Source of the DNA: Terriglobia bacterium
GTDB lineage: Bacteria > Acidobacteriota > Terriglobia > Terriglobales > Acidobacteriaceae
Direction of reading: 5' to 3'
DNA: 64,000 nt
Assembly (NCBI GenBank): GCA_020073385.1
Contig: JAIQFH010000019.1
Location: 1-64,000 of the forward strand
The notes beneath the pieces are model-generated. The model was not told the origin of the DNA, ran no database searches, and worked only from the letters and a program-made list of their open reading frames with translations. Both the position numbers and the translations under genes were made by a program. Of this stretch, positions 32,711-50,660 are shown piece after piece; position 1 is the stretch's first letter; every line of letters starts with the position of its first letter.

Positions 32711-33110
32711 CAACAATCAAGCTGACAGGGACTCTGATTTAGAGTTCCCGTCGGCGTGTGTCCTGCCACAGCTCCCACATCAAAAGAGACATTAAGAGTT
32801 CTGCACTTGGGTGCCGATAGCGGGCATGCCGTAGGGGCACAGATCTGCGGTCAGGTCGGGACTTGGTTTTGTTCTGGGTGGGTTGAACGATTGTTATAGA
32901 TCAGGCACACAATCAACAATCAAGCTGGCAGAGAAGTCGGACGAGAGTTTGGGCCGGTGTGGGTCGTGAAACTGCCTACTCAGTCAAAAGCGCAGTTGAG
33001 AACTCCGTACTGGCTACCGATGGAGTGCATGCCATAGGGGCACGGGTCTGCGGTAGCCTCAGTAGGTCGTGGCTTGGCGCGTTCTGGTGGTTGAAGCGAT
33101 AACCTTTGTT
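32711..33110. repeat. Imperfect tandem duplication, period about 204 bases, at the 3' end of the secretin-like gene
   Basis: Both copies begin CAACAATCAAGCTG (32711 and 32915). They share GTTCTG/ACTCCG, GCATGCC-TAGGGGCAC, TCTGCGGT and GGTTGAA-CGAT stretches in the same order. The second copy contains the last 40 or so codons of the secretin-like gene; the first lies after its stop codon. Confidence 0.7.
32792..32893 (-). pseudogene. Decayed second copy of the secretin-like C-terminus
   Basis: Read on the minus strand it gives NPPRTKPSPDLTADLCPYG, then MPAIGTQVQNS and TAA. The real gene end reads QPPERAKPRPTEATADPCPYG, then MHSIGSQYGVLNCAFD. The shared CPYGM-x2-IG-x-Q signature shows common origin. 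One frameshift separates it from further homologous sequence upstream. Confidence 0.6.
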
Positions 33111-35034
33111 CGTCGGGCATAGCCTTGACTGGACGGACGAGAGTGGTCGTGGTGACAGCGCTGGGGATCTGTGCGGGTGCCGGCGTCTTGGACGGCTCGG
33201 GCTTCGGAGGCGCGGCAGGCGGAGTGACTGCCTTCTGTGGCGCGTTGCGATTCGGAGAGTTGGGCGACGCAGTCTGCTCCATGGTGTTCGGGACACGAGC
33301 TGGAGCATTCCTTCTTGGATCCGTGTGACCTACAGTGACTGAGGTGCCACGGCCGAGATCGACCACGCGCAAATTGTCGTCCGTCACCTCCTGTGCACGG
33401 ACGATGTGAGGAGTGATCGCGAATACGATTTCGTTTTCCTGCCTCTGCTTGTCTTCTTGTCCGAAGAGGTATTTCAGGATCGGTATCTTCGTCAGCCAGG
33501 GATATCCACTGAGCGAAGTCGTCTCCGTGTCTTCGAGGATGCCGCCAACCAGGTTGACTTCTCCATCGCGCAGACGGGTTTCATGCTCGATGCGGCGCTG
33601 TCCGATGATCGGCTGACTGATGCCGCCGATGTTCTGCGTTCCACTCACCGACGACACTTCCAAAGTCATCTTCAATGTGACTTCATGTTCCGAGTGGATA
33701 TGCGGCGTAATGTCGATATTTACGCCCACGTCGAGATACTGGAACTGGGTGTTGACCAGTGCGCTGACGCCGCCGCCACCCGCAGCGGCTCCGAAGGATC
33801 CGGTCGCCACCGGGACGCGGTCGCCAATCTTCAATGTCGCTTTTTCGTTGTCGAGCGCGCGGATCTCAGGATTCTGAATCAGTTTCGTATCGCTGTCGCT
33901 CATCAAGTACGTCATCGATGCGCCCGGAATACTCACCTGGAAATTCGTGGCATTCAGCGCGCCTAGAGAGTTGAGGGTGAACGATCCACCCGATCCAGAG
34001 CCGCCGCCACCGGTCGTGCCGGGTACCATCACGATATTGGCAGAGGTCGGCGGATTGACTCCGAGATTGCGAATGCGGCTGCGGCTGACTTGCAGCACGG
34101 CGATCTCGATGACTACCTCTGGCTTTGGCTTGTCGAGATCAGTGAGTAATTTCTGCGCGAGAACCATCTGGTCGGTTGTGCCGCGCAAGATCAGGGCATT
34201 CTGATTGGGAACCAGTTGGATGCGGTTGAGATCAAGAATGCTCTTGAGCGTAGCAGCGGCTTCCTGCAGTTCGGCGGGAGTGGAAACGTTCTTGAGGTAG
34301 AACGTTTTCATCACCGAATTCTCCATGTCTTTGCGTTTCGCCGTAGTATCTGCCGCGATCAGGATCGTGTTGCTGGAAACGGGCGTCCAAAAAGTTTTTG
34401 TCTGGAGCGCGACGGTGTTCAGTGCTTCGCGCAGAGTGACGTCGTTCAGTTCGACAGTGATCTTCGGTGGTTTGTAATCCTGATCGAACAGAACGTTGAT
34501 TCCGGCGAGGTGCGCAATGGTCTTATAGACCATGGTCGCGTTTTCCGTGAGACGCAGGCTGATGAGCGTGTTGGACAGCTGCTGCAACTCCACGGGACCA
34601 GCGGCTTCCTGGGCCATCTTGTCGAGAGGCAATTCTTTCTTGGGTGTCTCCTCGCCGGCGTGCGCTTGCTTCTTGATGATCTCTTCGGTGCGGTGTGCTT
34701 CGGTTTTGGCGGCAAAGTTTGTGGGATCGATTTCGAAGGCGCGCTGGAATTCGGCAACTGCCTCCTGGAGCTTGCCACTATCGCGCAGCGCCTGTGCCTT
34801 GGTGACGTGTTGCACAGCCGCATAAAACCGCATGCGCGTGAAAGACGTGAAGTATTTCGCATCTTTCGGCTTCAGCGAATGCGCCTGGCTATAGGCCTGG
34901 AAAGCCCCATCGTAGTCGTTCTTGCTTTCGGCCTGAACGCCTTTCTTGAACGCGGAACTCGCCTGATCCGCGTGAGCGGCCACAGTGAATGAAACCAGAA
35001 GAATGAGAGCTGCGAAAATTCGCGCACGTTTCAT
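32980..35034 (-). CDS. Secretin-like outer-membrane protein with TPR and STN-type N-terminal domains
   Basis: 684 residues. A signal peptide (KRARIFAALILLVSFTVAA, then HADQ) precedes TPR units (about 25-120), an STN/secretin N0-type domain (about 160-235: INVLFDQDYKPPKITVELN and TLREALNTVALQT), a secretin N1-like domain (about 245-320), and the secretin C-terminal domain (about 330-560) with VPVATGSF, GVNIDITPHIH, EVNLVGGILED, and LTKIPILKYLFGQ. The last 120 residues are Pro/Ala-rich and end in CPYGMHSIGSQYG, then VLNCAFD. Secretins form multimeric outer-membrane gates for type II secretion or type IV pili; no partner genes are adjacent. Confidence 0.88.
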   Translation of the reverse strand: MKRARIFAALILLVSFTVAAHADQASSAFKKGVQAESKNDYDGAFQAYSQAHSLKPKDAKYFTSFTRMRFYAAVQHVTKAQALRDSGKLQEAVAEFQRAFEIDPTNFAAKTEAHRTEEIIKKQAHAGEETPKKELPLDKMAQEAAGPVELQQLSNTLISLRLTENATMVYKTIAHLAGINVLFDQDYKPPKITVELNDVTLREALNTVALQTKTFWTPVSSNTILIAADTTAKRKDMENSVMKTFYLKNVSTPAELQEAAATLKSILDLNRIQLVPNQNALILRGTTDQMVLAQKLLTDLDKPKPEVVIEIAVLQVSRSRIRNLGVNPPTSANIVMVPGTTGGGGSGSGGSFTLNSLGALNATNFQVSIPGASMTYLMSDSDTKLIQNPEIRALDNEKATLKIGDRVPVATGSFGAAAGGGGVSALVNTQFQYLDVGVNIDITPHIHSEHEVTLKMTLEVSSVSGTQNIGGISQPIIGQRRIEHETRLRDGEVNLVGGILEDTETTSLSGYPWLTKIPILKYLFGQEDKQRQENEIVFAITPHIVRAQEVTDDNLRVVDLGRGTSVTVGHTDPRRNAPARVPNTMEQTASPNSPNRNAPQKAVTPPAAPPKPEPSKTPAPAQIPSAVTTTTLVRPVKAMPDEQRLSLQPPERAKPRPTEATADPCPYGMHSIGSQYGVLNCAFD

Positions 35035-35476: not shown

Positions 35477-35589
35477 AAGATTGGGTTCATCTTCTCGTCA
35501 TCGGACGGCGCACAGACCCGCCCCCATAAAAAGCGTAGGTGCACTGGAGCGGAGACAAGTTTCCGCCCACGAAGGAGGCTGCAAAAGCC

Positions 35590-37464
35590 ATGAGAAATAC
35601 GTGTCGATACTGGTTGCCCATTTTTCTCCTAGGTTTCGCAACGGTGACTGTGAGTGCGCAGTCGTTCCGTGTGCAATGCCCGACGAGCACGATCACCCAC
35701 CCGGTAGCTGCAAACAACAATTCGGAGCCGGCTTACACCGGGTCCGGCGTTAACGGCGCCATCAAGTGTCAACAGATCTCCGGCGGTGATGGTTATTCGA
35801 CGATGGGCGACGGCACGCAGACATATATGTTCTCTTTCGGGCCGCTGTCCGGGATCGCGGATCTGGCGAATGGGCTGCCGGGCACTGAGTTTCCAAACGT
35901 ATTCAATGACCCGTACTCAGGCGCAAAAAGCCCGCAGCCCGGTGATCCGGCCACAACCGATGGGGTAAGCCCGGGATGCGGATTTGGCGCTCCTTGTGCC
36001 ACTGTTCCCTTTGCCTACAACGGCGCCATAGGACTGACCGCACGCGTGGTGGACACGGTCAACATTTACGAAGCCCACGAGGTCGGCACCACGGTGACGA
36101 TTGTGGCAAACGGGCCGTTTATTGTAAAAGCCGGCGACCAGGTGAAAATAGCCAACCTCGGCACCGGCTATGACGGCACCTGGACAGTTGCCGCCACCAA
36201 CATCGCAAACCCATTTCTGCCGAGTAACTACGCTTTCCAGTACACAGCCACGGCCACCGGGCTGGCGGAAGCGGTTGCGCCATTTGAGCAGCAGTTTGCG
36301 CCTACCGCCTCGACTCTTCCGGTAATCGATGGCCATGTCGATCCCCGGCCCATCATGGACGTCGCGGTAATGAACGGCAACATTCCGGCCCCGCTGATGG
36401 CGATTGATGAAGATGACGAATTCTTCCTCACGCTCACCAACGTGGGCATGATCATGCGGCCGGACTTGTTCGAGCAGCACACCGTCCACTTCCACGGCTA
36501 TCCCAACGCCTCCTCGTTCTACGACGGCGTGCCTGACGCCTCCGTGGCCATCAACATCGGTGGCAGCTTCACTTATTACTATCTCGCGCCGGACGCCGGT
36601 ACATACTTCTGGCATTGCCACATTACCCCGCCAGAGCACCTGCAGATGGGCATGGTGGGGCAGCTCTACGTGCGTCCCCGGCAGAACCGCGTACCCGCCG
36701 GCAGCAGCCTCTATACAGCCCTCCAGACACAAGAGAATGACCTGCGCATGGCTTGCAGACGACCCGTTGATGGCGGCACCCTAAGTGTTACCACCTATCC
36801 CGACATCCTGTGCAGCAATCCTGTGCCGGCCGTAAATACGAGCGCAGTTGCAGTTGAGACCGTATCGACCAACGCTGCCGTCACCAAGGGGTATGCCTAT
36901 AACGATGGCGACGGCTCGACCTACTACGACGTTGAGTATCCCATCCAGATCCACGGCTTCGACCCGACCTTCCACTTCGTTGGCATGACCTTTAACCCGG
37001 AAGGTTTTACTGAAATGAAGGACAAGTACTTCCTGCTGAACGGGCGCAGCTATCCCGACACCGTCACCCCCGGCCCCCTGGCTACCCAGTCGACCGACGG
37101 CGCCTTGCATTACTCGCAGCCGCTGCCTTCGATCATTAACATTCCGGCGGGGAAGAGAGCGCTGCTGCGCATTTCCGACCTGGATGTTACCGAATATCAA
37201 ACGTTGGCCTCACTTGGGATTCCAATGCAGGTTATCGCGCTCAATGCGAAGCTGCTGCGGGACCAGGAGGGAAACAACATGTATTACAACACCAACTCGA
37301 TCACGCTGGGCGGCGGCGAGTCGTTGGACGTGATCCTGGATGCGAGCGACACCACAAAGTATCCGTCGGGTAGCGTCTTCTATCTCTACACCCCCAACCT
37401 TGACCATTTGTCGAACGACGCGGAGAACTTCGGTGGGCTCATGACCGAGGTCCGCATTAACTAA
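35590..37464 (+). CDS. Multicopper-oxidase-like protein carrying the type 1 site (subunit A)
   Basis: 624 residues from the ATG at 35590 (AAGGAGG 11 bases upstream; in-frame starts further 5' would precede the ribosome-binding site). A signal peptide ends at TVSAQS. The copper motifs are His297-x2-His300-Phe-His302-Gly and, after DGVP and GTYFW, His342-Cys343-His344 with His350 and Met355. These give a complete type 1 set (His297, Cys343, His350, Met355) and four of the eight trinuclear histidines (300, 302, 342, 344). I see no second HxH pair, so the remaining four are missing. The rest is cupredoxin-like beta sequence ending GGLMTEVRIN. First gene of a tight three-gene operon. Confidence 0.85.
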   Translation: MRNTCRYWLPIFLLGFATVTVSAQSFRVQCPTSTITHPVAANNNSEPAYTGSGVNGAIKCQQISGGDGYSTMGDGTQTYMFSFGPLSGIADLANGLPGTEFPNVFNDPYSGAKSPQPGDPATTDGVSPGCGFGAPCATVPFAYNGAIGLTARVVDTVNIYEAHEVGTTVTIVANGPFIVKAGDQVKIANLGTGYDGTWTVAATNIANPFLPSNYAFQYTATATGLAEAVAPFEQQFAPTASTLPVIDGHVDPRPIMDVAVMNGNIPAPLMAIDEDDEFFLTLTNVGMIMRPDLFEQHTVHFHGYPNASSFYDGVPDASVAINIGGSFTYYYLAPDAGTYFWHCHITPPEHLQMGMVGQLYVRPRQNRVPAGSSLYTALQTQENDLRMACRRPVDGGTLSVTTYPDILCSNPVPAVNTSAVAVETVSTNAAVTKGYAYNDGDGSTYYDVEYPIQIHGFDPTFHFVGMTFNPEGFTEMKDKYFLLNGRSYPDTVTPGPLATQSTDGALHYSQPLPSIINIPAGKRALLRISDLDVTEYQTLASLGIPMQVIALNAKLLRDQEGNNMYYNTNSITLGGGESLDVILDASDTTKYPSGSVFYLYTPNLDHLSNDAENFGGLMTEVRIN

Positions 37465-37478
37465 CTAGGAGAGCAGCA

Positions 37479-39107
37479 ATGAGGGCGATGAACATGACAA
37501 ACACGATTTCGAAAACACAATTGCTCCTGGCGCTGACGGTGGCTCTAGCTCTGTTTCTGACGCCGGCGGCTTTCGCTGCGGCTCCTGGAATCACCGGTCC
37601 GACTTTCGACCTGACGGCGCAAGCCGCCTTCATCAGCCAGCCCGACGGGCAGTCGGTCTATTCCTGGGGTTACGGCTGCAACGGCGCGCCTACCGGTTAT
37701 GCCCCCTCGGCGATCGGCGGCACGTTTTGCAACACGATGCAGCTGCCTGGCCCCACGCTGATCGTCACGGAAGGAAGCGCGGTGACGGTAACGCTACACA
37801 ACAATCTCCCGGTCTCGGCCGGCAACACTTCCATTCTGTTTCCCGGCTTCAACGTGACGACGAGTGGCGGGGTGGCCGGGTTGCTCACGCGGGAAGCGGC
37901 GCCTGGCGGAACGGTGATCTACACCTTGACCGCCTCCTCAGTTACGCCGGGGACCCGCGCCTATTACAGCGGAACCCAAGGCGATCTGCAGGTCGAGATG
38001 GGCCTTTACGGCGCCATCATTGTGCTTCCGGCCGCTACCCCCGCCACCTGCACGTCCGGGGTTGCTGCTTCAAATGACGCGGCCAGGTCGCATTGGCTTG
38101 AATCTGATTTTCGGCTAGCGAAGGCCGCCTATAACAATCCGCAGGCCTGCTATGACCGCGAATACCTGTTCCAGTTCTCGGAGATGGATCCCGCCATTCA
38201 CCGCGCCGCGGAGGAGCAGGTCGCGATAGCCGCTCCGATCTGCGCGACTTCGGCTACGGCTCCGGGATGCAGTCTCAATGTTCCGACCGAGCCGTACCAT
38301 CCCGCGTACTTCATGATTAACGGCCGCTCGATGCCTGACAACATGGACCCCAACTACGCGGTCCAATATCCGCACCAGCCCTACAACGGCAATCCGCACA
38401 TGCACCCGGGTGAGTTGACATTGCTGCGCGTCATCGGCACGGGACGGTGGCAACATCCCTTCCACGAGCACGGCAACCACGTGCGCATCCTGGCGCGGGA
38501 TGGGAACTTGATTCTCACGCCCGATGGGAATGCTTTGGCCGGGCCACTGATGTTCACCACGACCACCACTCCTGGCCTTGCCATGGATGGGATCTTCTAC
38601 TGGACAGCCAAGGGCCTGAACTGGGATGCGTACGGTCACAATCCCGCGTCTACCGACCCCAGCGCCAAGCTTCCGTGCACTCCGGACGCCAACGGCTATA
38701 ACACGAGCGCTCCAAACGCCATCAACTACTACGAGTGGTGCCAAGACCACGACAAACCGCTGCAGGTCGCTCCCTTCGGCGATGTCGCGGGCGGCGGCCC
38801 GGCCACTCTGCCGGATCCGAACCTGTTCGCCAACGGCGCTTGGTTCGGCGGCAGTCCCTATCTTGGTCCGGATGCGACCACCCGCGCCACCTATGGCGCG
38901 TGCGACTCTACGGGCAATTGCAGCACTACCGGCACCACTCCACCTTCGGGCACGATTGCGAATAACCCCTCAACAGAGGCCGGTTTTGCCTTTATGTGGC
39001 ACTCGCACAACGAGCGCGAAATCACCACTAACAATATTTTCCCCGGCGGCATGCTCATGATGATGCTGGTTGATTCCCGGGAATTTCAGATTAACGAGTC
39101 GAACTAA
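37479..39107 (+). CDS. Multicopper-oxidase-like protein lacking the type 1 cysteine (subunit B)
   Basis: 542 residues, 14 bases after subunit A, with AGGAGAG before the ATG. Signal peptide up to AAFAAAPG. The N-terminal cupredoxin-like domain (DGQSVYSWGYGC and MGLYGAIIV) has no ligands. Copper motifs are HPFHEHGNH (His326, 329, 331) and, about 180 residues later, MWHSHNE (His508, Ser509, His510). His329, 331, 508 and 510 supply exactly the four trinuclear histidines absent from A. Ser509 replaces the type 1 cysteine. MofA/McoA-like Mn oxidases and two-domain laccases are the nearest families I can name. Likely a periplasmic partner of A. Confidence 0.85.
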   Translation: MRAMNMTNTISKTQLLLALTVALALFLTPAAFAAAPGITGPTFDLTAQAAFISQPDGQSVYSWGYGCNGAPTGYAPSAIGGTFCNTMQLPGPTLIVTEGSAVTVTLHNNLPVSAGNTSILFPGFNVTTSGGVAGLLTREAAPGGTVIYTLTASSVTPGTRAYYSGTQGDLQVEMGLYGAIIVLPAATPATCTSGVAASNDAARSHWLESDFRLAKAAYNNPQACYDREYLFQFSEMDPAIHRAAEEQVAIAAPICATSATAPGCSLNVPTEPYHPAYFMINGRSMPDNMDPNYAVQYPHQPYNGNPHMHPGELTLLRVIGTGRWQHPFHEHGNHVRILARDGNLILTPDGNALAGPLMFTTTTTPGLAMDGIFYWTAKGLNWDAYGHNPASTDPSAKLPCTPDANGYNTSAPNAINYYEWCQDHDKPLQVAPFGDVAGGGPATLPDPNLFANGAWFGGSPYLGPDATTRATYGACDSTGNCSTTGTTPPSGTIANNPSTEAGFAFMWHSHNEREITTNNIFPGGMLMMMLVDSREFQINESN

Positions 39108-39123
39108 CTGAGGAGAGAGAGCA

Positions 39124-42100
39124 ATGCGATTCAATCACCTAAGGTCCACTTTGAAGACAGCGGTACTGGTAACAACAGTTCTCCTCCTCGGAGCGGGTCT
39201 GGCTCTCGGTCAGGTGACCGTCCCCCTGAGCGCTGGGCCGAGCACAGCGCTCCTGCCCGACGGCTCCTCCGTGCCCATGTGGGGCTATAGCTGCGACGGC
39301 GGCGCGACCGCGAATTGCCGCGCGCTGAATCCTGCGTCCGTGGGGTGGTCGCCGGTTGTGATCACCGTTCCTACCGGACAAGCGCTGACCATCCACCTCA
39401 CCAACAATCTGAGTTTCGCAGGCGGAAATATTCCGACTTCGCTGACGATTGTGGGCCAGTTAGGCGGCGGCCTGGGAACACAGAGGACCACTACGTCGAG
39501 TCCCGACCACACCAACGCCCAGGGGGCAGTGACCTGGCCCATCGTCGATCCGACTACGTCGGGCACGCCGCCGGCCCAAGGGCCACGCGTGCAGTCGTTC
39601 TCGACGGAAGTGGCCGTCGGAACCCCAACGGATTTGACCTGGAGCAATCTCAGGCCCGGTACATATCTGTTGGAGTCCGGTACGCACCCGTCCATTCAGG
39701 GTCCCATGGGCCTGTACGGAATGGTGGTGGTCACCACTCCGCCAGCGACGGCGCTTTCGCCCTTCACGGCTTATCCCGGCGTGACTTACAACGCGGATGC
39801 ACAGTTGCTGTTCAGTGAAATCGACCCTGCCCAGAACCGCTACGTCGACGACGTAGTAAACACGGCTGGCTTCAGCGAGACCACGGTTTGGTCAGGCCAG
39901 GTCGGGACCTGTGGCGACGTAACTGTAACCGCCCCGCACATGCACACCTGCTATCCGCCGGCGGTGAACTACAAGCCGCTGTATTACCTTATCAACGGAG
40001 CCGCCTTCGACAAGACGCACGCCTTGGCCTCGGTATTCCCAACCTTCCCCTCTGCCGTGCTTTCCCCGACCGGTTCGGTTTTGGTGCGCCTGGTGAATGC
40101 TGGCCTGCGCATGCACGTACCTTCGATCGTCGGCTCGCAAACCGGAGCCCCAGCGGTCCCGGGATTCGGGTTGATTGCGGAAGATGGGAATCCCCTCCCT
40201 GGCGTGACCAGAGTACAGAGCGAAGTGTTCATGGCCGCGGGCAAGACCTACGATGTCAAGATCAATGTTCCTGCCGCGGGTGGAACAGCGCTACCTATCT
40301 TTGATCGTGAGTTGAGCCTGTCGGGCAACGCGGTCGCGCGCGACGCCGGTATGCTCGCCTACATCAGCGTTAACGGCGCAGGACTGCCAGCCGCGGGTGC
40401 AATCGGGGGCGCAGTAGCCAGAGATGACACCTACAACTCGGTGATTGCGGGCCAGACGTTCACGGTGTCGGACCCAGCCAAGGGTCTTATCGCGAACGAC
40501 ACGAATGTCTCCGGCGTTACGCTCGTGGGGACAGTCGCGGGCCTTACCGTTAACCCGAACGGGACATTTACCTACTCGGGCCCTCCAACTAGCTTTATGT
40601 ATTGCGCGAACGGCACTGTCACGGGAACGACATGCTCCTCTGGCATCACTGCCAGGGTGACCTTAGGCGCCGAGACTGCGGAGCTCCCCAGCGGCATTAC
40701 CTGCAACCCCTCCGCGTACACGTCGGCCATGGCCACGTACATCAACATCCCGGCCCCGGGCGTCTTGGCGGCTTGCAAAGACGCGGCGGGCTATCCTCTT
40801 AAGGTTGACTTGTTGAGCGTTACGGCGCCAGGTGTAACGATGCAGGCGAATGGCGGGTTCATTGCGACCAGCGCCTCAACGTCCTTTACCTTCCAGGCAC
40901 AGAACTCACAGGGGACAGACGGTGTGGCAACAACCGTGACCCTGACCTTCCCGGGAGCGAACGGCCCAGCGGTAACGCTTGTGGACGGCAAGACGCATAC
41001 CGCGCTTGCAAGCCAGGACTATCGCTGGATTATTGAGGAAGACCGCACGTTCTACGTCAACCCCAACTGCACAACGAACCCCCTGCCGGGTGGCTGCCCC
41101 ACGGTTACGACAGCCCCGCCCAGCCGTCCCGCAGTATTTGGGACAAATTTCCATACCAGCTACATGCCGCTAGTGGCGCAAGGATGTACCGGGAAAAATT
41201 CCTGCGAATCGGGCCAGTTTGTGCTTGATCCCGCCACCGGGAACCACGTGCCGGCGGTGTGCGACGCTGGCAACGGCGTCTGCAGACCTGATCCTACGGG
41301 CGACGGACAAGTAGCCGTAGATCCCACCCAAGTCCATCTGGACCCAACTAAGCGGTATTACATCTCGGTTCTGCCAGGCGATGCGGCCGATCCGTTCAAT
41401 GGAGCCGACATCGGCCACGGCATGGGCGGCGCTCCGATCGTCTATGACGCGACCGCGGGACATTGGGTAAACCCGGGCGTAACGCCAATCGTCGCGGGCG
41501 GCGTCAATGTGATCGTCGAGCCTACCCCACTGCAACCGGCCATGCTCTCAGTGTTTGTCTTCGAGGACGACTTCCCGCTGAACGGCGAGCAGGATGGCGG
41601 CGGCGGAATTGACGTATTGTCGCCCAACGAGCCCGGTTTGGGGGGCTTCCAAATCACCTTGTTTGACGATGCCGGCGGCACCGGTGACGCCACTGGCCAG
41701 CCCACCTACGACATGTTCAACATGCCGTTGTCCAACGCGTTGGCGGGAACGATCGATCCGGTCACCAAGCTTGATGCTTGCCCGGTTTCGAAGAACGCAA
41801 CGACCGGTGTAGACGGAGTTACCAGTCCAACCGGCATCACCGGCATGATCGTGACCTGCCCGAAATACGAAGCCGACGGAGTAACTCTATCCCCGTTAGC
41901 GGGCCATGCGATCGTGGCTAACCTGTATCCGGGACGTTACGGCGTGGTTGCGACCCCCGGAGCCGACCACATTGCCCAGGGCGAGGAGTGGCTGCAGACC
42001 AATACCCTGGACGGGCAGAAGGCCCACGATTCCTTCATGCGCGTCGGCGAACCGAGCTACTTCCAGGAGTATGGGCCGGCGGGATATCACGTTTCCATCG

Positions 42101-45100
42101 GCTTTGCTAACCCGAAGATCATCAACGACCGCTTGCCGATCCTATGTGCGGCCTCGGGCACCAACACGTGCTCGCATGCCGTAAAAGGCTTGGTAACGAC
42201 CGCACGCAATAGCCGCACGCCGGATGAGAGACTCTACGGCAGCGGCACGCGCGATAGCTTTTCGTTCACTCAGTGCTATATCAGCCTGGGCGATCCCGAC
42301 GGCCAGGACTTCGCCTTTACCAAGTGCAACCCGGATGGGACCTTCACCCTTCCGAAAGTTCCCGCTGGCGATTGGAGAGTGACCATCTTCGACCAGTGGA
42401 ACGATCAGATCGTGGACGGCATTTCGACGCCTGTCAGGATCGGCACTGGGGATACCGACATCAATATGGGAGAGGTTGCGGTTAACCAGTGGCAAGCCAA
42501 TATTTACACCTCAACCTTCTTTGACGCGAACCAAGATGGCGTTCGTCAAGACAACGAAACGGGGCTGGCGCTGGTGCCGACCAACATCCGCTTCCGCGAC
42601 GGCAGTTTCTCCAACTTTAACAACACTGACCTCGATGGAAACGCCGGCTTCAATGAGGTGTTCCCACTGTTCAGTTGGTATGTGATTGAAACGGATTCGA
42701 CCCGCTACAAGAACACGGGAACCCACGTGGTGTACGACGCGGGCGGCCCGGCCGACGGCTGCAGCGGCTCTACGGCACCGTGCGGAAACACCACCATTGC
42801 CGCCAACATGGCGAACACCTATGAAGACCCCACCGTAGCTCTGCCTCCTTCCCTACGGGTACCGGGCTCATATTACTGCGCCACAGGGGACTGCGGCGAT
42901 GCCCCGGTTCCGCTCCCCGCTGCGGCTACGAGCGGCCCGGGCGGCTCCACGGGCCGTGTTGATCCGCCTACGGCTAATTCGTATGGCTGGCAGGGCTTCG
43001 CAGGACAGAACTCGTTCCTGGAGTTCGGCAAGAAGCCCTTCGCACCCGGCGAGACTGGCGGCATCCATGGCCACGTCGTGTATTATTCGACGCGCCCCTT
43101 TGATGACCCGGCTTTGGATTTGCAGCTCAGTTGGACTCCTCTGGTTCCGCACGTTACCGTGAACCTTTACCAGGAGGGGACGGCCGCAGACGGAAGACCA
43201 TCCCTGCAATTGGTTGACACCACGCAGACCAGCAGTTGGGATGATTGGGCACAGGGATTCCGGTCCGACGGCGTTCCCAACATGAACTGCCCGGGCCAGA
43301 CAACCACCGATCCTTTCTTCTTCACGCTGCAAGATCAGCCGAACTACCTTGACTGGTACAACAACGTGTTGCACGGCACGGCGACGACCGCGACCGCGCT
43401 GCCGAACAATTCCCAGTTCAAGTGCTATGACGGCATGCACGCGTGGAACCAGTTGCAGCCTGCGCCTTACGACGGCAGGTACCAGTTCCCCAGCGTCACC
43501 GCCACGGATCCAACAACTGGCGTACCCACCGGGACGAATTGCACGATCTGCGCACCGAATACCGCCGCAGCTTCGACAGATTGGGATCGCAACCTTCCCA
43601 TGCTGCCGGCCGGCAAGTACGTAGTCGAAGTGGTTGTGCCGCCCGGCTACGAACTGGTGAAGGAAGAGGACAAGAACATCCTGATCGGCGACAATTACAT
43701 TGCGCCGGTGACCCAGGAGTTCGCAGGTTTGGGCAACGTCTTCATTCTGCCCGACCAGGCTGCGCTCGCCGAAATGTACAACCCCTACAATACCCAGAAC
43801 TCGACGACCAACATGGGCCTGCCGCGGCATGAGGGCGACACGGGAAGCGTCGAGAGCTACTGGCCGTGCGTGGGCCAGGCGCGCGTCGTTCCCGACTATC
43901 TGAGTATTTTCCCGCAAGCGCAGGAAGTCGCGCCGTTCGCCGGAGCGACTCGCAATCTGTGCGATCGCAAGGAGGTCACGCTGGAAGATCAGTCGTCAGT
44001 GCTGGCGAAGTTCTACGTATTCACTTCGACTCACGCTGCCTCCCACTACACCGGAATTATCACCGACGACTTCACCTCGGAATTCGATCCGTTCTCGCCC
44101 GACTTCGGAGAGAAATTCTCGCCGGCCAACCTGCCCGTGTCTCTTAAGGACTGGAACGCCAACGAAGTGGCCCGTGTCTATGCCGATCAGTTTGGCACCT
44201 ACAATGGCTTGAACTACTCGACTTGGGAAGTGAACCCGCCCAACCCGACCGGATATGCGCCCACCATGATGGTGGTGTGCATGAACGACCCAGGCACTGG
44301 GGCGACCCCGGATAATTTGTTCCAGCCAGGCTATAGCGATTTCTGCTATGAGCTGCCGTTCATGCCGGGACAAACCGGATACTTCGATACGCCGGTAATC
44401 CCCACCTCCGCATACTCGGAAGGCTACAACCATCCGGACTGCAACTACCCGGATGCTACGCCAGCGATCGCGAGTGTTACCAGTTCGGACATAGCCGGAC
44501 CTTGGGTGAGCGCGCCCGGTCACTCCCTTACCATCACCGCTCTAGGTGACGTGCAGGTGGACAACTATGGATATTCCGGGCCCGCGATTAATACGAGTAC
44601 CTTCAGCTGGGCTAAGCAGAAGGTTACCCGCCACTACGGTTTCGGGGCAAGTCAGGGAACCGGAAGTGTGACAATCGGCGGAGTAACGGCACCTGTGACA
44701 AGTTGGAGCGACACGCAGATCACTGTCACCGTTCCCGACAACGTGCCTGCATGTGCCATACAGCAACAGCGGCAATTTGGAGGCCCGAATCCCGCCAATC
44801 CCGAGCTCTGCGGCCAATTGCTCATTACGGCCGGCAATGGCAAACAATCCATTGACACCGTAACGGTCACCGTCGGAAACAGCCAGACCACCATTCCGAA
44901 GGTGTTGGCGGCTGGGCAAACGATTCAGTCGGCGATTGATGCCGCTAACCCGGGCGACATGATCATCATTCCTCCCGGCTCTTACAGCGAGATGGTGCTG
45001 ATGTGGAAGCCGGTCCGTCTGCAAGGCGTCGGAGCTGCTTCCAGCGTTATCAACGCAAACACCCAGCCTTCGGGACAACTGAAGCTGGATCCATGGCGTC

Positions 45101-48057
45101 GTCAGGTGGTGTGTCTGTTTGGGTTGGCGCTCAACGGCACGCCTATCAGCGCCACCAATCCGTACGATCCGACCCCTCCCGACCAGGGTGGGTTTACCTG
45201 CCCGGCCAATATGCAGCTCCAGGTCGATCGGTTACCGCTGGAAGCGGTGGTGGGCTGGGATGCCACCCTTAACGGCAACCTAGCGGAGTTCCTGCAAGAG
45301 CCAACCCTGATGGGAGCCTATGAAGGCGCAGCCATTACGGTTCTGGCGAAAGGTGTGAACTTCCACGGAGTCGATCCGTGGAGCGGAGCAGCCATCGCCG
45401 AGACGGGAGCGTTCCCGGACGGCACCACGCTGCTTACGGCCGGCAGTTGCGGGTCGAATGGGGTTGGCAATAAGAACCCGTTCCCAAGCAACTTCTGGTG
45501 CAACCCGTCCAGCATCGACGGCTTGGGCATTATGAACAGTTCCCAGGGCGGCGGTGGCATCAACGTGCACGGTTGGGGTCATAACATCCAAATTGCCAAC
45601 AACCGGATCCACAACAACGAGGGAACACTCTCAGGCGGTATTACGATTGGGCAAGGCGAACATCCTGGGCTGTATCTCGGGGGAGCAGTTGCGGGAGCCA
45701 CGAATGCGGCTCCGGGCTCCTGCCAGAACAGTGGCGTAGAGGGCCTTGCGCTGCCGTACTGCTTTGACATGAACGTGAACGTCCACAACAACAATATCTC
45801 GTTGAACTCTTCCGAGGGCGATGAGCTGTTCTCGTCGACGCCAGCGGGGGCGGGTGGTATCAGCTTCTGCACCGGCTCCGACTTCTACAAGTTCAACTTC
45901 AACTGGATCTGCGGGAACATGAGCACGGGAGACGGGGCGGGCATCGCTCACCTTGGGTTCTCGTACAACGGTGACATCGAGCACAACTCGATTCTGTTCA
46001 ACCAGAGCACCAACCCGACTATCGTGACCAATGGCGGCGGTCTCCTGGTCTACGCTGCTCCTGACGTTGATCCTACTTGCGGCCAAACGAACGACAAGGA
46101 TTGCGCGGCTCCTGGGTTGGGCGATGGCACCGGTCCTGGCTTGGTGATCAATGCCAACCTGCTGCTGGGCAACACGGCGGAAAGCGGCAGCGGCGGCGGT
46201 ATGCGCTTCCAAAACGTTAACGGAACGGAAGTGAGCACGTTCCCCACGACCCCGACGCGGTGGTACGAGGTCAGGGCTACCAACAACGTCATCACGAACA
46301 ACGTCGCTGGTCTGGATGGCGGTGGCGTGTCGTTGCAAGACTCGCTGGTAGTGGACTTCATCAACAATACAGTCGCTTCCAACGATTCCACCGCATCTGC
46401 GGGAATCCTGTTCAACACGCTGTTTGCTCCTTTGGGCAGCAGTTCGGGAACAAGTTGTACTACAAGCGGAGTCTCGGCCACTTCGAACTCGCAGTCGTGC
46501 CCGCAGGTCGCCGGTTTGGTGAGCGTTCCAAACAGCTCAGCCCTGACCTCGGCCTTGCCTGGGACGATCACTTGCCCCCTAGGCCATGGAACAGGGGGAA
46601 CGGGTGGTGGTGGCCGTAACAACGGCGCTTGCAAGCGCTTCTCCTTCCCGCTTATGTATAACGACGTGTTCTGGCAGAACCGTTCATTCTTCATCGGAGT
46701 GGGCGGCCTCGGAACGGGACAGCAGAATCAGCAGAATGTAGTCACGTTGTATGACTCATTCACCACGACGCCAGCGGAGACCCAGCCGCAAGTGGACGCC
46801 ACCACGGCGAATGGCAGCGGCACGATCATCACCGGTGGCGCTGGCGCCTGCGTCCTGCCTAATGCAGCTCCGAACTATTGGGACATCGGTGTGCGCGGCG
46901 ACAGCTCACCGACGACCCACGAAGGCAGCACGAATGCAACGCCGCTGTCCCCGTCGAACTCCGTGATTACGGCGGGTTACACCGGCAACCAAAACCAAAA
47001 TGGCAACCCGACCTTCGTCAGCCAATACTGCAACGGTTCGCGGGTGCCGCCAGAGCTTGGCACGATGGGCTATATCGTGAACCCGGGAACCAATGAAACC
47101 AACGCTCCTGTGCCCATCTTCAGTCTCACGCCATCGGCGACGGTGGACGAAGGCAACAACTGGATCAACATGAGATGGGGCCCTCTGGCACTGACGCACC
47201 CGGTGACCGGTACTGTGCTGGGCAACTACGCGCCAGCGACGGGTTCTTCGGCAATTAATAACGGGAGCTCGATTGCTGTGTCCAACGTCGCACCTCCGGC
47301 CACCGATTTCTTCGGGAATCCGAGGACGCCTCCGTATGATATCGGCGCGATCGAGACTGCGTCGGTCCTGAACCGTAGCGCAAGCGTAACACCTGGTTCG
47401 CTGAGCTTCGGCACCTGGGTGACAGGCAGTAACAGCACTACGCAGAACGTGACGGTGACCAATACGGGCAACGTTGCCTTAAACGGCGGCAGCTTCACCT
47501 TGGTCGGGGCCTTCTCGCGGGTCACTACCGGAGCATTCCCGGGCAACGCTCCGAATTGCACAGGGACGTTGGCGACAGGCGCTTCTTGTACCGTCAAGGT
47601 GCGGTTCTCGCCAACCGCGGCAACGGCCTTCAACGGATCGTTGACGGTTGCGTACACGGGGGCCACGGTCACGCCCGCATCAGTGACACTCACTGGCACG
47701 GGTGCAGTGACCTTGGCGTTCTCGGGACCGACTCCGTCTCTGGTCACGGGAGGCACTAACGCGCACTCAGGCACGATCACCGTTACGAACAATAGCGGTG
47801 CAACCATAACGCTCGCCTCCAATCCAACGGTTACCAGGGATTCGGGAGTGAGAACCTTCAGCATTGTTGCTCCCGCGTCGGGAACGCGATGCCTGTCGGG
47901 CTTGGCTGTGGCAAACGGAGCATCTTGCACGATCGGCGTGCAGTACGGCGCCGGCGCCAATGTTTCGGGTGCAACGGCACATGTGACGCTGACCGATACG
48001 ATGGCGGGAGCTCAAGGAACGGGAACCCAGATCAGTCCGGAGTTCAGCGCTAACTAG
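39124..48057 (+). CDS. Giant exported multidomain protein (2977 residues) of the multicopper-oxidase operon
   Basis: It starts 16 bases after subunit B with GAGGAGAG upstream. Signal peptide (LKTAVLVTTVLLLGAGLAL, then GQ). Approximate domains: copper-less cupredoxin-like pair related to the N-terminus of B (30-410; DGSSVPMWGYSC, MGLYGMVVV); cadherin/Big-type beta unit (430-510); SdrD B/Cna B-like units (805-890, 1060-1180) with an EF-hand-like loop DANQDGVRQDNE near 1136; further beta domains; a right-handed beta-helix with pectate-lyase-like repeats (1925-2650; TIQSAIDAANPGDMIIIPPGS, NNRIHNNEG); two ASH/choice-of-anchor-D-like domains at the end (2750-2977). Cys-rich for a secreted protein. 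Likely a surface scaffold. No C-terminal anchor is visible. Confidence 0.85.
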   Translation: MRFNHLRSTLKTAVLVTTVLLLGAGLALGQVTVPLSAGPSTALLPDGSSVPMWGYSCDGGATANCRALNPASVGWSPVVITVPTGQALTIHLTNNLSFAGGNIPTSLTIVGQLGGGLGTQRTTTSSPDHTNAQGAVTWPIVDPTTSGTPPAQGPRVQSFSTEVAVGTPTDLTWSNLRPGTYLLESGTHPSIQGPMGLYGMVVVTTPPATALSPFTAYPGVTYNADAQLLFSEIDPAQNRYVDDVVNTAGFSETTVWSGQVGTCGDVTVTAPHMHTCYPPAVNYKPLYYLINGAAFDKTHALASVFPTFPSAVLSPTGSVLVRLVNAGLRMHVPSIVGSQTGAPAVPGFGLIAEDGNPLPGVTRVQSEVFMAAGKTYDVKINVPAAGGTALPIFDRELSLSGNAVARDAGMLAYISVNGAGLPAAGAIGGAVARDDTYNSVIAGQTFTVSDPAKGLIANDTNVSGVTLVGTVAGLTVNPNGTFTYSGPPTSFMYCANGTVTGTTCSSGITARVTLGAETAELPSGITCNPSAYTSAMATYINIPAPGVLAACKDAAGYPLKVDLLSVTAPGVTMQANGGFIATSASTSFTFQAQNSQGTDGVATTVTLTFPGANGPAVTLVDGKTHTALASQDYRWIIEEDRTFYVNPNCTTNPLPGGCPTVTTAPPSRPAVFGTNFHTSYMPLVAQGCTGKNSCESGQFVLDPATGNHVPAVCDAGNGVCRPDPTGDGQVAVDPTQVHLDPTKRYYISVLPGDAADPFNGADIGHGMGGAPIVYDATAGHWVNPGVTPIVAGGVNVIVEPTPLQPAMLSVFVFEDDFPLNGEQDGGGGIDVLSPNEPGLGGFQITLFDDAGGTGDATGQPTYDMFNMPLSNALAGTIDPVTKLDACPVSKNATTGVDGVTSPTGITGMIVTCPKYEADGVTLSPLAGHAIVANLYPGRYGVVATPGADHIAQGEEWLQTNTLDGQKAHDSFMRVGEPSYFQEYGPAGYHVSIGFANPKIINDRLPILCAASGTNTCSHAVKGLVTTARNSRTPDERLYGSGTRDSFSFTQCYISLGDPDGQDFAFTKCNPDGTFTLPKVPAGDWRVTIFDQWNDQIVDGISTPVRIGTGDTDINMGEVAVNQWQANIYTSTFFDANQDGVRQDNETGLALVPTNIRFRDGSFSNFNNTDLDGNAGFNEVFPLFSWYVIETDSTRYKNTGTHVVYDAGGPADGCSGSTAPCGNTTIAANMANTYEDPTVALPPSLRVPGSYYCATGDCGDAPVPLPAAATSGPGGSTGRVDPPTANSYGWQGFAGQNSFLEFGKKPFAPGETGGIHGHVVYYSTRPFDDPALDLQLSWTPLVPHVTVNLYQEGTAADGRPSLQLVDTTQTSSWDDWAQGFRSDGVPNMNCPGQTTTDPFFFTLQDQPNYLDWYNNVLHGTATTATALPNNSQFKCYDGMHAWNQLQPAPYDGRYQFPSVTATDPTTGVPTGTNCTICAPNTAAASTDWDRNLPMLPAGKYVVEVVVPPGYELVKEEDKNILIGDNYIAPVTQEFAGLGNVFILPDQAALAEMYNPYNTQNSTTNMGLPRHEGDTGSVESYWPCVGQARVVPDYLSIFPQAQEVAPFAGATRNLCDRKEVTLEDQSSVLAKFYVFTSTHAASHYTGIITDDFTSEFDPFSPDFGEKFSPANLPVSLKDWNANEVARVYADQFGTYNGLNYSTWEVNPPNPTGYAPTMMVVCMNDPGTGATPDNLFQPGYSDFCYELPFMPGQTGYFDTPVIPTSAYSEGYNHPDCNYPDATPAIASVTSSDIAGPWVSAPGHSLTITALGDVQVDNYGYSGPAINTSTFSWAKQKVTRHYGFGASQGTGSVTIGGVTAPVTSWSDTQITVTVPDNVPACAIQQQRQFGGPNPANPELCGQLLITAGNGKQSIDTVTVTVGNSQTTIPKVLAAGQTIQSAIDAANPGDMIIIPPGSYSEMVLMWKPVRLQGVGAASSVINANTQPSGQLKLDPWRRQVVCLFGLALNGTPISATNPYDPTPPDQGGFTCPANMQLQVDRLPLEAVVGWDATLNGNLAEFLQEPTLMGAYEGAAITVLAKGVNFHGVDPWSGAAIAETGAFPDGTTLLTAGSCGSNGVGNKNPFPSNFWCNPSSIDGLGIMNSSQGGGGINVHGWGHNIQIANNRIHNNEGTLSGGITIGQGEHPGLYLGGAVAGATNAAPGSCQNSGVEGLALPYCFDMNVNVHNNNISLNSSEGDELFSSTPAGAGGISFCTGSDFYKFNFNWICGNMSTGDGAGIAHLGFSYNGDIEHNSILFNQSTNPTIVTNGGGLLVYAAPDVDPTCGQTNDKDCAAPGLGDGTGPGLVINANLLLGNTAESGSGGGMRFQNVNGTEVSTFPTTPTRWYEVRATNNVITNNVAGLDGGGVSLQDSLVVDFINNTVASNDSTASAGILFNTLFAPLGSSSGTSCTTSGVSATSNSQSCPQVAGLVSVPNSSALTSALPGTITCPLGHGTGGTGGGGRNNGACKRFSFPLMYNDVFWQNRSFFIGVGGLGTGQQNQQNVVTLYDSFTTTPAETQPQVDATTANGSGTIITGGAGACVLPNAAPNYWDIGVRGDSSPTTHEGSTNATPLSPSNSVITAGYTGNQNQNGNPTFVSQYCNGSRVPPELGTMGYIVNPGTNETNAPVPIFSLTPSATVDEGNNWINMRWGPLALTHPVTGTVLGNYAPATGSSAINNGSSIAVSNVAPPATDFFGNPRTPPYDIGAIETASVLNRSASVTPGSLSFGTWVTGSNSTTQNVTVTNTGNVALNGGSFTLVGAFSRVTTGAFPGNAPNCTGTLATGASCTVKVRFSPTAATAFNGSLTVAYTGATVTPASVTLTGTGAVTLAFSGPTPSLVTGGTNAHSGTITVTNNSGATITLASNPTVTRDSGVRTFSIVAPASGTRCLSGLAVANGASCTIGVQYGAGANVSGATAHVTLTDTMAGAQGTGTQISPEFSAN

Positions 48058-48404: not shown

Positions 48405-48971
48405 ATGGAGGCGAAAGTGCAAGGAACCACGCTGACAGGGACGTTCGAAATTGAAGAGGTAGCCGTCAACTCGCGGTGGAGAACCCTCGCTTCAAGCTGC
48501 TATAAGACGTCCGCCGCGAAGGTGAGAGGCTGCTGCCGCTGGTTCCTCTTGAGTCTGGCTGTGGTGGCGCTGATCGTCTGCTCGGGCGCGCCCGGCGTCG
48601 CTCAGGTGGGCACCGCGGCGAGCCCGGCAAAACCAATGCTTCACAGTCAGAGAAGCGCGCGGGCTATTGAGGACCGGGTCAAGGTATTCGCCAAGAATTT
48701 GGACCTCAACGAGGCGCAACAGGCTGCCGTGAAGAAGATCCTGGAGCAAAGGCAGCAGGAGACTGTGCGTATCCGGCTGGATCCGACGCTTATCGGAACC
48801 GCCAAGTTCGATCGGTTTCGCGCCCTGCAGGATAAGACTGTGGAACAGATCCGGGCCGTGCTCAACGAGGAGCAGAGGAAGAAATATGATCCGCTGGCCG
48901 TGCGAAGAATACAGCCGGCGCCGGGTCAGCGGAGTGTAGAGGATTGGATCAATGCCACCACTCCGCGGTAG
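48405..48971 (+). CDS. Exported Spy/CpxP-like helical protein
   Basis: 188 residues. A hydrophobic segment at about 46-62 (FLLSLAVVALIVCSGA, then PGVAQ) is a signal peptide with an unusually long n-region, so the true start may be a GTG at 48522. The mature part is helical: KNLDLNEAQQAAVKKILEQ, RDPTL-type spacing, and VLNEEQRKKYDPL, resembling the LTxxQ-type periplasmic chaperones or metal-responsive proteins (Spy, CpxP, ZraP). In an operon-like series leading to the Cus pump, a metal-stress role is plausible. Family assignment is tentative. Confidence 0.65.
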   Translation: MEAKVQGTTLTGTFEIEEVAVNSRWRTLASSCYKTSAAKVRGCCRWFLLSLAVVALIVCSGAPGVAQVGTAASPAKPMLHSQRSARAIEDRVKVFAKNLDLNEAQQAAVKKILEQRQQETVRIRLDPTLIGTAKFDRFRALQDKTVEQIRAVLNEEQRKKYDPLAVRRIQPAPGQRSVEDWINATTPR

Positions 48972-49106
48972 CGTCGGCTTCGCTTGCTCGCAAAGCCAAC
49001 TTACAGCCCTTCGATTTTAGACAATCGTTAGGTCACCCCTTTTTTTGTTCACAGAGGGGGCTTTGTGGTACAATTAAAACTCCTCCCTCGGTATAGCCCA
49101 AATCCC

Positions 49107-49625
49107 ATGATTCGTTCATTTTCGTGCACCCTCGTGCTTTGCGGCGCTCTGCTGGCGCAGAATGCTTCGCCGAGTCCCAGCAGCAAGCAATCCAGCTCCA
49201 CCACTCCGATGGCTGCGGCCAGCGCCAGGACTGCAGGCAATGTTAGATCAACCCACTACCATCCAGATCGTTTTGCCGGCCGCGCAGGGACCTATTACCG
49301 CGTGGTCTGGGGAGTCGATTCGCTGAGTGTGAAGTGGGCCGAGTCAGGCGAGATGATTCGTTTTACCTATCGGGTCATCGACACTGAGAGGGCTAAGACT
49401 CTCGGCGATAAGAGGCTGGAGCCGTCGCTGGTCGACGAGCGGGCGCGCGTGAAACTGGTCGTGCCAATGATGGACAAAGTGGGGAAATTGCGCCAGACCA
49501 GTCCACCCGAGGCGGGGAAGACTTACTGGATGTTGTTTTCGAACAAAGGTGGATATGTGAAGCGTGGGGACCGGGTGAATGTGGTGATCGGGAATTTCCA
49601 CGCCGATGGACTTGTGGTCGATTAG
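49107..49625 (+). CDS. Exported protein of unknown function in the metal cluster
   Basis: 172 residues from the ATG at 49107, giving a signal peptide (MIRSFSCTLVLCGALLAQ); the frame is open 14 codons further. A Ser/Thr-rich linker is followed by a beta domain with strongly patterned sequence: YYRVVWGVDSLSVKWAESG, IRFTYRVIDTERAKTLGDK, VKLVVPMMDKVGKLRQ, SYWM-like YWMLFSNKGGYVKRGDRVNV, and VIGNFHADGLVVD. I do not recognise a named family. Position between the multicopper oxidases and the RND pump suggests a periplasmic role in metal handling. Confidence 0.7.
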   Translation: MIRSFSCTLVLCGALLAQNASPSPSSKQSSSTTPMAAASARTAGNVRSTHYHPDRFAGRAGTYYRVVWGVDSLSVKWAESGEMIRFTYRVIDTERAKTLGDKRLEPSLVDERARVKLVVPMMDKVGKLRQTSPPEAGKTYWMLFSNKGGYVKRGDRVNVVIGNFHADGLVVD

Positions 49626-49694
49626 TTCTCCTCCTCCACGACCGAAGCTCGCAATTGGGGATTGGGTTCAAAAGCTCGAAAAAGGGGTGTGTTC

Positions 49695-50531
49695 ATGAAA
49701 ACGAAGCTTATTTCTTGCGCGGCGATGCTCTTTGCGTTTCTGCCGTCGTTGATGTCCGGGGCCGATACTTCAACCAAGGCGACGGCGCCGAGTTTGTCGG
49801 TTACGCAGATCGTAGAAAAGAACGTCACTGCGCGTGGAGGATTGGATCGTTGGCGTGCCTTGCAGACCTTGGAGATGAAGGGCAAGATGCAAGCCGGCGG
49901 CAATAAGCGGCCGACCATCCCGGTTCCGGGCACCAAGGTCGGGGGAGAGGTTCGCGCAGAGCGGCTAAAAGAGCAGGCACAGCTTCCATTTCTGATGGAC
50001 CTGGGCCGCGGGCGCAAACAGCGTCTCGAGATACAATTCAACGGCCAGACCGCGGTTCAGGTCTACGACGGTTCGCAAGGCTGGAAGATCCGGCCCTTCC
50101 TGAACCGTCATGAGGTCGAGAAATTCACCGCCGACGAATTGAAAGCGGCATCGCAGCAATCGGATCTTGATGGCCTGCTGATTGATTACGCGGCGAAGGG
50201 ATCCCAGGTCGAACTGGCTGGTGTCGATCAAGTGGAAGGTCGCAGCGCATACAACTTGAAAGTGACTGACAAGAACGGATATGCCCGCCATGTGTGGGTG
50301 GATGCCGACAGTTTTCTCGAGGTAAAGGTCGAAGGTGCGCCACGCCGTCTGGATGGCAAGTATCACCCGGTTGCAGTCTATCTTCGTAATTATCGCTCCG
50401 TGAACGGTCTGATGATGCCCTATCTGATGGAAACGACCGTCGAGGGAGTGAAGGACACTGAGAAGATCGAGATCGAAGAAGTCGTTTCGAATCCGAAGCT
50501 CGACGCTTCTAAATTCGCAATGCCGCGTTGA
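49695..50531 (+). CDS. Exported LolA-fold-like protein
   Basis: 278 residues from the ATG at 49695 (AAGGGG upstream). Signal peptide (MKTKLISCAAMLFAFLPSL, then MSGA). The body resembles outer-membrane lipoprotein-sorting (LolA/LolB/RseB-like) beta-sheets: NVTARGGLDRWRALQTLEMKG, RQRLEIQFNGQTAVQVYDG, QGWKIRPF, and a C-terminal EIEEVVSNPKLDASKFAMP. Such domains bind acyl chains or lipoproteins in the periplasm. Exact ligand unknown. It lies 69 bases after the preceding gene on the same strand. Confidence 0.72.
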   Translation: MKTKLISCAAMLFAFLPSLMSGADTSTKATAPSLSVTQIVEKNVTARGGLDRWRALQTLEMKGKMQAGGNKRPTIPVPGTKVGGEVRAERLKEQAQLPFLMDLGRGRKQRLEIQFNGQTAVQVYDGSQGWKIRPFLNRHEVEKFTADELKAASQQSDLDGLLIDYAAKGSQVELAGVDQVEGRSAYNLKVTDKNGYARHVWVDADSFLEVKVEGAPRRLDGKYHPVAVYLRNYRSVNGLMMPYLMETTVEGVKDTEKIEIEEVVSNPKLDASKFAMPR

Positions 50532-50660
50532 GCTTCACCCTCCCCCTTATTTTGGGCGCCGCAAAGCACGTTGGTGGCTGATCGCCGATTCCGACAGTGC
50601 TTTGGGCGTTCTTGCTGCTGATTCCAATTCGTGAAATCGCGATTGACACGGGAGTTTGAA

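Follow-up and report, generated by a model that had tools for sequence, protein, structure and literature searches.

Within a 64-kb stretch of contig JAIQFH010000019.1 from a Terriglobia bacterium (the window), three adjacent genes on the + strand, here called A, B and C, encode related two-domain cupredoxin proteins, and the ligands of one multicopper oxidase are divided between the first two. A supplies a complete type 1 copper site and four histidines of the trinuclear cluster, B supplies four more trinuclear histidines, and C supplies none. We propose, at a probability of about 0.7, that the three products form an extracellular A:B:C heterotrimer that reduces O2 at a single working copper site, located where domain 1 (D1) of A meets domain 2 (D2) of B, with C as the anchor.

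Copper ligands are divided between genes A and B

Gene A (35590..37464, + strand) encodes a protein of 624 amino acids whose D1 (residues ~245-375) contains every type 1 ligand (H297, C343, H350 and M355) together with the trinuclear histidines H300, H302, H342 and H344, in agreement with the first-pass annotation of the window, which had placed the type 1 site on the first-domain side. H297, H300 and H302 belong to HTVHFH (36478..36495, +; invariant in 13/13 aligned proteins), and H342-C343-H344, H350 and M355 to HCHITPPEHLQMGM (36613..36654, +). Both strings, the first extended to HTVHFHG, align to D1 of the two-domain oxidase 3g5w, and the ligands were assigned from this alignment, type 1 being told from trinuclear by established motif rules. 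In the 13 aligned A proteins, all from Acidobacteriota, the three histidines of HxxHxH, the HCH motif, the second type 1 His and the Met are all invariant, as is the column of D312, the Asp of 'YDGVP', presumably the counterpart of the proton-relay Asp of Fet3p. A wider set consists of 80 loci, the best 80 of 427 B relatives obtained in a scan. According to their record titles, these come from Acidobacteria, Desulfobacterota-type Deltaproteobacteria, Hydrogenedentes, Planctomycetes, Nitrospirae, Verrucomicrobia, Myxococcales, Beta- and Gammaproteobacteria, and others. The A ligand set is complete in 78 of the 79 A proteins found there, the exception (L063) being cut by a contig end. D2 of A (residues ~430-624 of the same + strand gene) carries no ligands, and a second HxH pair that would complete the cluster of A was sought among these proteins and not found, one odd string, HTTHLHA near the C-terminus of the L057 protein, being the only candidate. 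Pfam matches in A are Cu-oxidase_3 (257-365) and Cu-oxidase_2 (238-364). The reading frame is open upstream of the ATG at 35590 back to a GTG at 35539; AAGGAGG precedes the ATG, where a signal-peptide-like stretch starts. Residues ~152-244 form a family-specific N-terminal insert that differs strongly even among close relatives and is absent from the A proteins of the other acidobacterial group.

Gene B (37479..39107, +), preceded by an AGGAG ribosome site recognized by sequence (37467..37471, +), encodes 542 amino acids. Its D1 motif is eroded, and its D2 provides the trinuclear ligands H329 and H331, in HPFHEH (38454..38471, +), and H508 and H510, in H508-S509-H510 (39000..39008, +). The first residue of HPFHEH, H326, has a His counterpart at the same place in 3g5w. 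On D2 of 3g5w, the HxxHxHG and HSH motifs of the B family profile fall in register and in the right order. All 12 aligned Acidobacteriota B proteins have HPxHxH and HSH, the G after HPxHxH being A in L039, and the B ligand set is complete in 79 of the 80 loci; the remaining one, L116, is a short, probably frameshifted open reading frame (ORF) that stops before HSH. Ser509 stands in place of the type 1 Cys, as reported by the first-pass annotation, and the same substitution is found in all 79 complete B proteins; the B ORF of L083 contains an unrelated HCH string inside a loop. Pfam matches Cu-oxidase_3 at 88-185 and, below the cut-off, Cu-oxidase_2 at 271-343. Longer relatives of B exist: P0333 and P0344 (749 and 899 amino acids) possess all B motifs, with long inserts between them, and among relatives of 668-743 amino acids, P0285 (668) is named 'manganese oxidase' by its source.

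In the aligned consensus, A D2 has no ligand at the columns where B D2 has them, and B D1 has none at the ligand columns of A D1. The first-pass annotation was correct in the identity and number of all 14 residues that it named, and its ORF ends agree with ours. Its central observation, that A and B add up to eight trinuclear histidines and one type 1 set while neither is complete alone, is borne out by the aligned columns and their conservation; a complex of A and B would thus offer what a functional oxidase requires. A and B could instead be two ordinary, independently working multicopper oxidases, since Pfam calls both Cu-oxidase and the cluster described in PMC12016527 has canonical motifs in two of its three proteins. 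This is extremely improbable: four HxH motifs are present in neither protein, B lacks the type 1 Cys, and erosion is seen at the aligned columns of the motifs that are missing. We reject the notion that A and B are each a full oxidase, as it is contradicted by their sequences.

A third two-domain copy continues into a giant protein

Gene C (39124-48057, 2977 amino acids) lies directly behind B, with a GAGGAG ribosome site, assigned from sequence, at 39110..39115 (+). A, B and C are thus arranged head to tail with gaps of 14 and 16 bases; each gene is preceded by a Shine-Dalgarno sequence and all three products have, by eye, a signal-peptide-like start. The N-terminal part of C (residues 1-431; 39124..40416, +) is a third two-domain copy in which the copper ligands are missing: Pfam matched no copper-oxidase family in window C, but residues 1-331 are ~24-26% identical to B, and positions 68-333 of the C profile align to residues 31-276 of the metagenome laccase 2zwn. 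The rest of C (40417..48057, +) is a giant extracellular-type protein with weak SdrD_B and choice-of-anchor domains. Both the third copy and the giant surface-type protein accompanying the trio had escaped the first-pass annotation.

The two parts of C are separable. In other acidobacterial families (loci L042-L046 and L048), the two-domain region is a separate ORF (341-644 amino acids) right after B, and relatives of the giant part (L042-L048) lie upstream of A, fused to it in L048. A giant relative is present in 71 of the 80 loci, located upstream of B in 70 (in 11 of these fused to A, which makes 11 of 79 A proteins) and fused to C in L111; the trio of the nine other loci lies within 2.8 kb of a contig end. 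L066 was left out of this count, as the sole match there is another ORF, located downstream, that carries nine CxxCH motifs. Where the giant protein has Pfam domains, they are SdrD_B, beta-helix or polysaccharide-lyase-type.

We compared profiles of the A, B and C families (78, 80 and 77 sequences) cut at the domain boundary. First domains matched first domains (A-B 99.2%, A-C 98.3%, B-C 100%) and second domains matched second domains (A-B 98.5%, A-C 98.3%, B-C 99.5%), with no cross-match between D1 and D2 profiles above 15.2%. Because each domain matches its counterpart only, A, B and the N-terminal part of C are, on these profiles, descendants of one two-domain protein. In the aligned consensus, the type 1/cluster motif occurs only in D1 of A, and HPxHxH only in D2 of B. 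Judged from these motifs, the A.D1/B.D2 interface is the only one of the three D1/D2 interfaces in a ring that would have ligands on both sides, and a homotrimer of A or of B would contain half-clusters only.

The trio is kept together across bacterial groups

The order A-B-C on one strand is kept throughout the 80 loci, in which we found 79 A, 80 B and 79 C; the absent A (L055) and the absent C (L099) lie beyond contig ends. C is the next gene after B, less than 400 bases away, in 79/79 loci. A and B are separated by less than 200 bases in 76 of 79, the wider cases being two over-extended ORF starts (L073, L113) and a 493-base gap (L114). Pairwise distances across 75 shared loci correlate (r = 0.70 for A-B, 0.68 for B-C and 0.61 for A-C), as is expected for genes inherited together, and are no proof of contact.

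Whole-genome samples, drawn evenly and including the centre genome, gave the same picture. In Acidobacteriota, the phylum of the window, the A profile matched 14 of 199 genomes at 1e-10, 12 of them with a true A, weak matches without an adjoining B (G147, G077) being left out; B and C follow in 11 of these 12, and the contig of the twelfth (G136) ends at A. In the phylum of L071, a Desulfobulbus record, the B profile matched 9 of 148 genomes at 1e-20, and A lies directly upstream in all eight true cases. The phylum of L122, a Rhodoferax record, yielded 4 matches in 398 genomes, two of them true (G209, the centre, and G603), both A-B-C. B-profile matches in G334, G553 and G740 are other oxidases and were not counted. 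In the family of L091, a Sideroxydans record, 6 of 100 genomes matched at 1e-40, and the two examined, G803 and G822, both have A, B and a C-giant, with B histidine motifs HPFHFHG and HPFHEHA, respectively. The G803 proteins (528, 527 and 2879 amino acids) are 62%, 52% and 39% identical to window A, B and C; downstream of its C lie ORFs of 280, 212 and 535 amino acids, of which the 535-residue one has a single CxxCH. Another, diverged A-B-C set is present in the genome of the window itself (contig C63, 11492-23658; L036), again with C fused to the giant part; B of this set is ~76-80%, the N-terminal part of C ~68% and the A core 83-88% identical to the window set. G073 also has two sets.

A search for homologues of A and B fused in one chain, a check proposed in the first-pass annotation, yielded none. 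A and B form one ORF in 0/79 loci, and with the A-B-C read-through of L071 as query (143 matches among 7995 scored candidates, 120 of the 143 being considered), no true A-B or B-C fusion was present among the 360 proteins examined. The apparent fusions P0329 (A-B) and P0241 (B-C) were counted as frameshift artefacts because, by eye, the frame changes near the junction, with re-entry at the next signal peptide.

Predicted docking of A and B

A joined A-B chain from L080 (846 amino acids; alignment of 53 rows, 25 paired) was modelled with a predicted local distance difference test score (pLDDT) of 84.4 and a predicted template modelling score (pTM) of 0.84, the linker (408-441) being below pLDDT 50. 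The joined chain is thus predicted in one confident arrangement; two rigid halves with no set orientation to each other would be expected to score much lower. A joined A-B-C chain from L071 (1179 amino acids, 34 rows) reached pLDDT 76.4 and pTM 0.63. Fold matches were taken from the best 50 for each model, mostly two-domain chains, and further families may lie beyond these. In the A-B-C model, 376 residues of A D1 and B together superpose at 2.7 A on 6vow, an oxidase of 409 residues; most two-domain matches cover fewer (~250-290). In the A-B model, B and A match type C two-domain oxidases over 272 and 267 residues. For this model, the Thermus laccase entries 2xu9 and 6w2k reach a template modelling score (TM) of 0.68 of their length, and the Thermus entries 6wcn and 9cpm and the other laccases and three-domain oxidases among the matches listed appear at TM 0.40-0.52. 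In our reading of these matches, A.D1 stands where laccases have their domain 1, facing B.D2. The A/B heteromer with an interface cluster put forward by the first-pass annotation is thus supported computationally, through the split ligands, the gene linkage, the pTM of 0.84 and the fit to 6vow, although the third copy was missing from it.

The confident docking also bears on whether A and B share a cluster at all. A could be a type 1 electron-transfer protein with a half-formed second site and B a copper-binding or chaperone-like protein, each acting on its own: half of the cluster ligands are in each, the evidence is computational throughout, and sequence searches relate A to NirK-type D1 domains too. 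We regard this as very unlikely, because a lone half-site would not explain why the two families retain the full eight trinuclear histidines from phylum to phylum, and because the predicted A-B docking is confident.

A proposed heterotrimeric ring with one working site

We therefore favour the A:B:C heterotrimer, in which a 1:1:1 extracellular ring would replace an ancestral homotrimer. A, B and the first ~430 residues of C would be three diverged copies of one type C D1-D2 oxidase. Copper would be retained at one of three D1/D2 interfaces, between A.D1, with the type 1 site and four trinuclear histidines, and B.D2, with the other four, while A.D2, B.D1, C.D1 and C.D2 would be eroded and structural only. 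The type 1 copper in A would receive electrons from the substrate and hand them on, by way of HCH (342-344), to the trinuclear cluster between A and B, where O2 would be reduced to water. Being another two-domain unit of this kind and encoded by the next gene, C is the simplest candidate to complete the ring, and its fusion to a ~2500-residue adhesin/beta-helix-like protein would anchor the enzyme at the cell surface or to a mineral. Fe(II) minerals are the best lead for the electron donor, by analogy with the published expression of probable orthologues; Mn(II), Cu(I) and organics are possible.

Several points speak against this arrangement. At the sequence level, the D2 matches of B to 3g5w are weak singly (independent E-values of 0.027 and 78). 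The A-B docking was read from scores and superpositions rather than from His-His distances, and joining the chains by a linker may itself favour contact. Among the best 50 matches, 6vow is the only one with a low root-mean-square deviation (rmsd) that spans A and B in the A-B-C model, and there is none in the A-B model; the TM of 0.68 for 2xu9 and 6w2k goes with an rmsd of 13 A over all aligned columns, and 6wcn and 9cpm reach only TM 0.47-0.50. The position of C in the ring is not established, as the pTM of the A-B-C model is only 0.63. Foldseek alignments of the six-domain proteins ceruloplasmin, factor V/VIII and MnxG cover all domains of that model, but at TM 0.20-0.27 and rmsd ~19-23 A, so that a ceruloplasmin-like ring is not demonstrated. 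The order of subunits round the ring would differ from the gene order. Conservation is lowest in C (median identity 45% vs 57-60%), which fits a separate anchoring role too. Finally, per the record titles, many hosts belong to groups with anaerobes, and O2 reduction there needs explaining.

Alternatively, A and B might form the oxidase without C, as a dimer or a ring such as A:B:B, C being only a surface anchor or an unrelated partner of the giant protein. Every ligand sits in A and B, the A-B chain is modelled with confidence and A-B-C is not, and C is the most variable copy. We nevertheless consider this improbable: C repeats the two-domain unit of A and B and comes directly after them in 79/79 loci where it is visible, and an A:B pair leaves open interfaces that the trimers of this class close (PMC13151041).

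Neighbouring genes

Upstream of A, a tetratricopeptide repeat-secretin fusion gene (Pfam Secretin and Secretin_N; 32980-35034, - strand) adjoins it and points away; its product could export the large extracellular proteins. Between C and a set of efflux genes lie four predicted secreted ORFs (48405-51197, +; 188, 186, 289 and 188 amino acids), for which Pfam gave no match at 0.001. They are followed at 51247-56072 (+) by genes for a CusB-like fusion protein with heavy-metal-binding and YHS domains and for an AcrB-family pump, by sequence a likely copper/heavy-metal efflux pair.

Pfam searches of chosen ORFs from L057, L070, L071, L080, L091 and L122 identified SCO1/SenC in L122 and subtilase in L071, L091 and L122. 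The subtilase gene follows C in all three (L122 13815-18435, L091 4743-7007, L071 12627-14297), and the L122 region also contains SCO1/SenC and a 557-amino-acid protein with one CxxCH. A motif scan of the 80 loci detected CxxCH proteins in 30 and SCO1 in 1, the scan being too crude for SCO1. A protease, copper loading and electron transfer may thus belong to the system.

Comparison with known systems

The best sequence and fold relatives of the trio are the type C two-domain oxidases, represented by 3g5w from Nitrosomonas europaea and by 2zwn. Two-domain oxidases build their cluster with residues of two protomers, those of type C bearing the type 1 site in the N-terminal domain (PMC13151041), and the class forms homotrimers with the cluster at the subunit interface (PMC13151041, PMC3192119). 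The trio resembles them in the D1-D2 cupredoxin chains of A, B and C and in the location of the type 1 ligands in a first domain, that of A only; the likeness to two-domain laccases drawn in the first-pass annotation is upheld and refined to the type C layout by the 3g5w alignment and by PMC13151041. In type C enzymes, however, one gene gives three identical subunits with three sites, whereas here three genes supply the ligands for one site and one subunit has none. The four HxH motifs of a type C chain are split between A and B and absent from C, so the trio would work like a type C enzyme without being a plain member.

With the six-domain proteins MnxG (9bxa), ceruloplasmin and algal Fox1, which retain one trinuclear site while the others are eroded (PMC3600357), the trio shares three two-domain units and a single trinuclear site. 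Those proteins are one chain and the trio is three, A and B sharing an ORF in none of the 79 loci; MnxG appeared only as a low-TM match. In MnxG-like proteins, domain 2 holds the type 1 site and the cluster lies between this domain and domain 3 (PMC3600357), in contrast to the type 1 site in a first domain of the trio. MnxG also needs MnxE and MnxF for expression, although only mnxG encodes a multicopper oxidase (PMC5622069).

A counterpart of the trio has been published in the Slit_1812-1818 cluster of Sideroxydans lithotrophicus ES-1, whose cupredoxins are probable orthologues. Three multicopper oxidase genes in tandem were described there, accompanied by a mofC-like gene and one for a copper chaperone (PMC5566968). 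Slit_1817 and Slit_1818 have canonical motifs, and Slit_1816, larger and without them, has adhesin and polysaccharide-lyase-like domains (PMC12016527), as in our trio, where the motif-less protein is also the larger one; the ES-1 cluster continues with SCO1/SenC and a cytochrome (PMC12016527; PMC5566968). Similar clusters are listed for Paraburkholderia, Ralstonia, Anaeromyxobacter and Steroidobacteraceae (PMC12016527). In print the ES-1 proteins are uncharacterised cupredoxins: the account of the cluster in PMC12016527 mentions neither a split site nor a complex, and the words trinuclear and heterotrimer are absent from its main text. In a literature search that mostly left subscription journals and preprints outside, no heteromeric, heterotrimeric or split multicopper oxidase was found; 'heterodimeric laccase' is in use there, mostly for fungi, and oligomeric ascomycete laccases are also described. 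OmpB of Geobacter sulfurreducens and MofA of Leptothrix are large oxidases that lie outside the cell and are linked to metal oxides; genes for a mofC-like cytochrome and a copper chaperone are found nearby, as in ES-1; the three ES-1 proteins are called not homologous to them (PMC5566968), and it is this description, rather than sequence, that sets the trio apart from OmpB/MofA.

Since Slit_1812-1818 is expressed more highly in late magnetite than in Fe(II)-citrate cultures of this iron oxidiser (PMC12016527), the complex is a candidate mineral-facing oxidase of soil, sediment and groundwater bacteria. If the proposal is true, the cluster of this oxidase needs contact between two different gene products before it can form, and this explains why annotation that takes genes one at a time shows two ordinary multicopper oxidases. 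We lean, with some reserve, towards a wider picture: a widespread oxidase with a two-gene cluster in an A:B:C ring with two dead interfaces, tethered by a giant protein, acting on metal minerals and laid out as in type C rather than as in ceruloplasmin or MnxG. In published schemes, the six-domain oxidases (ceruloplasmin, factors V/VIII, MnxG) arose from an ancestor with several sites through duplication and the loss of copper sites (PMC3600357). The trio would be a living intermediate between homotrimer and six-domain chain, seemingly with duplication and copper-site loss but no fusion in living bacteria, and this stage could therefore be purified and tested.

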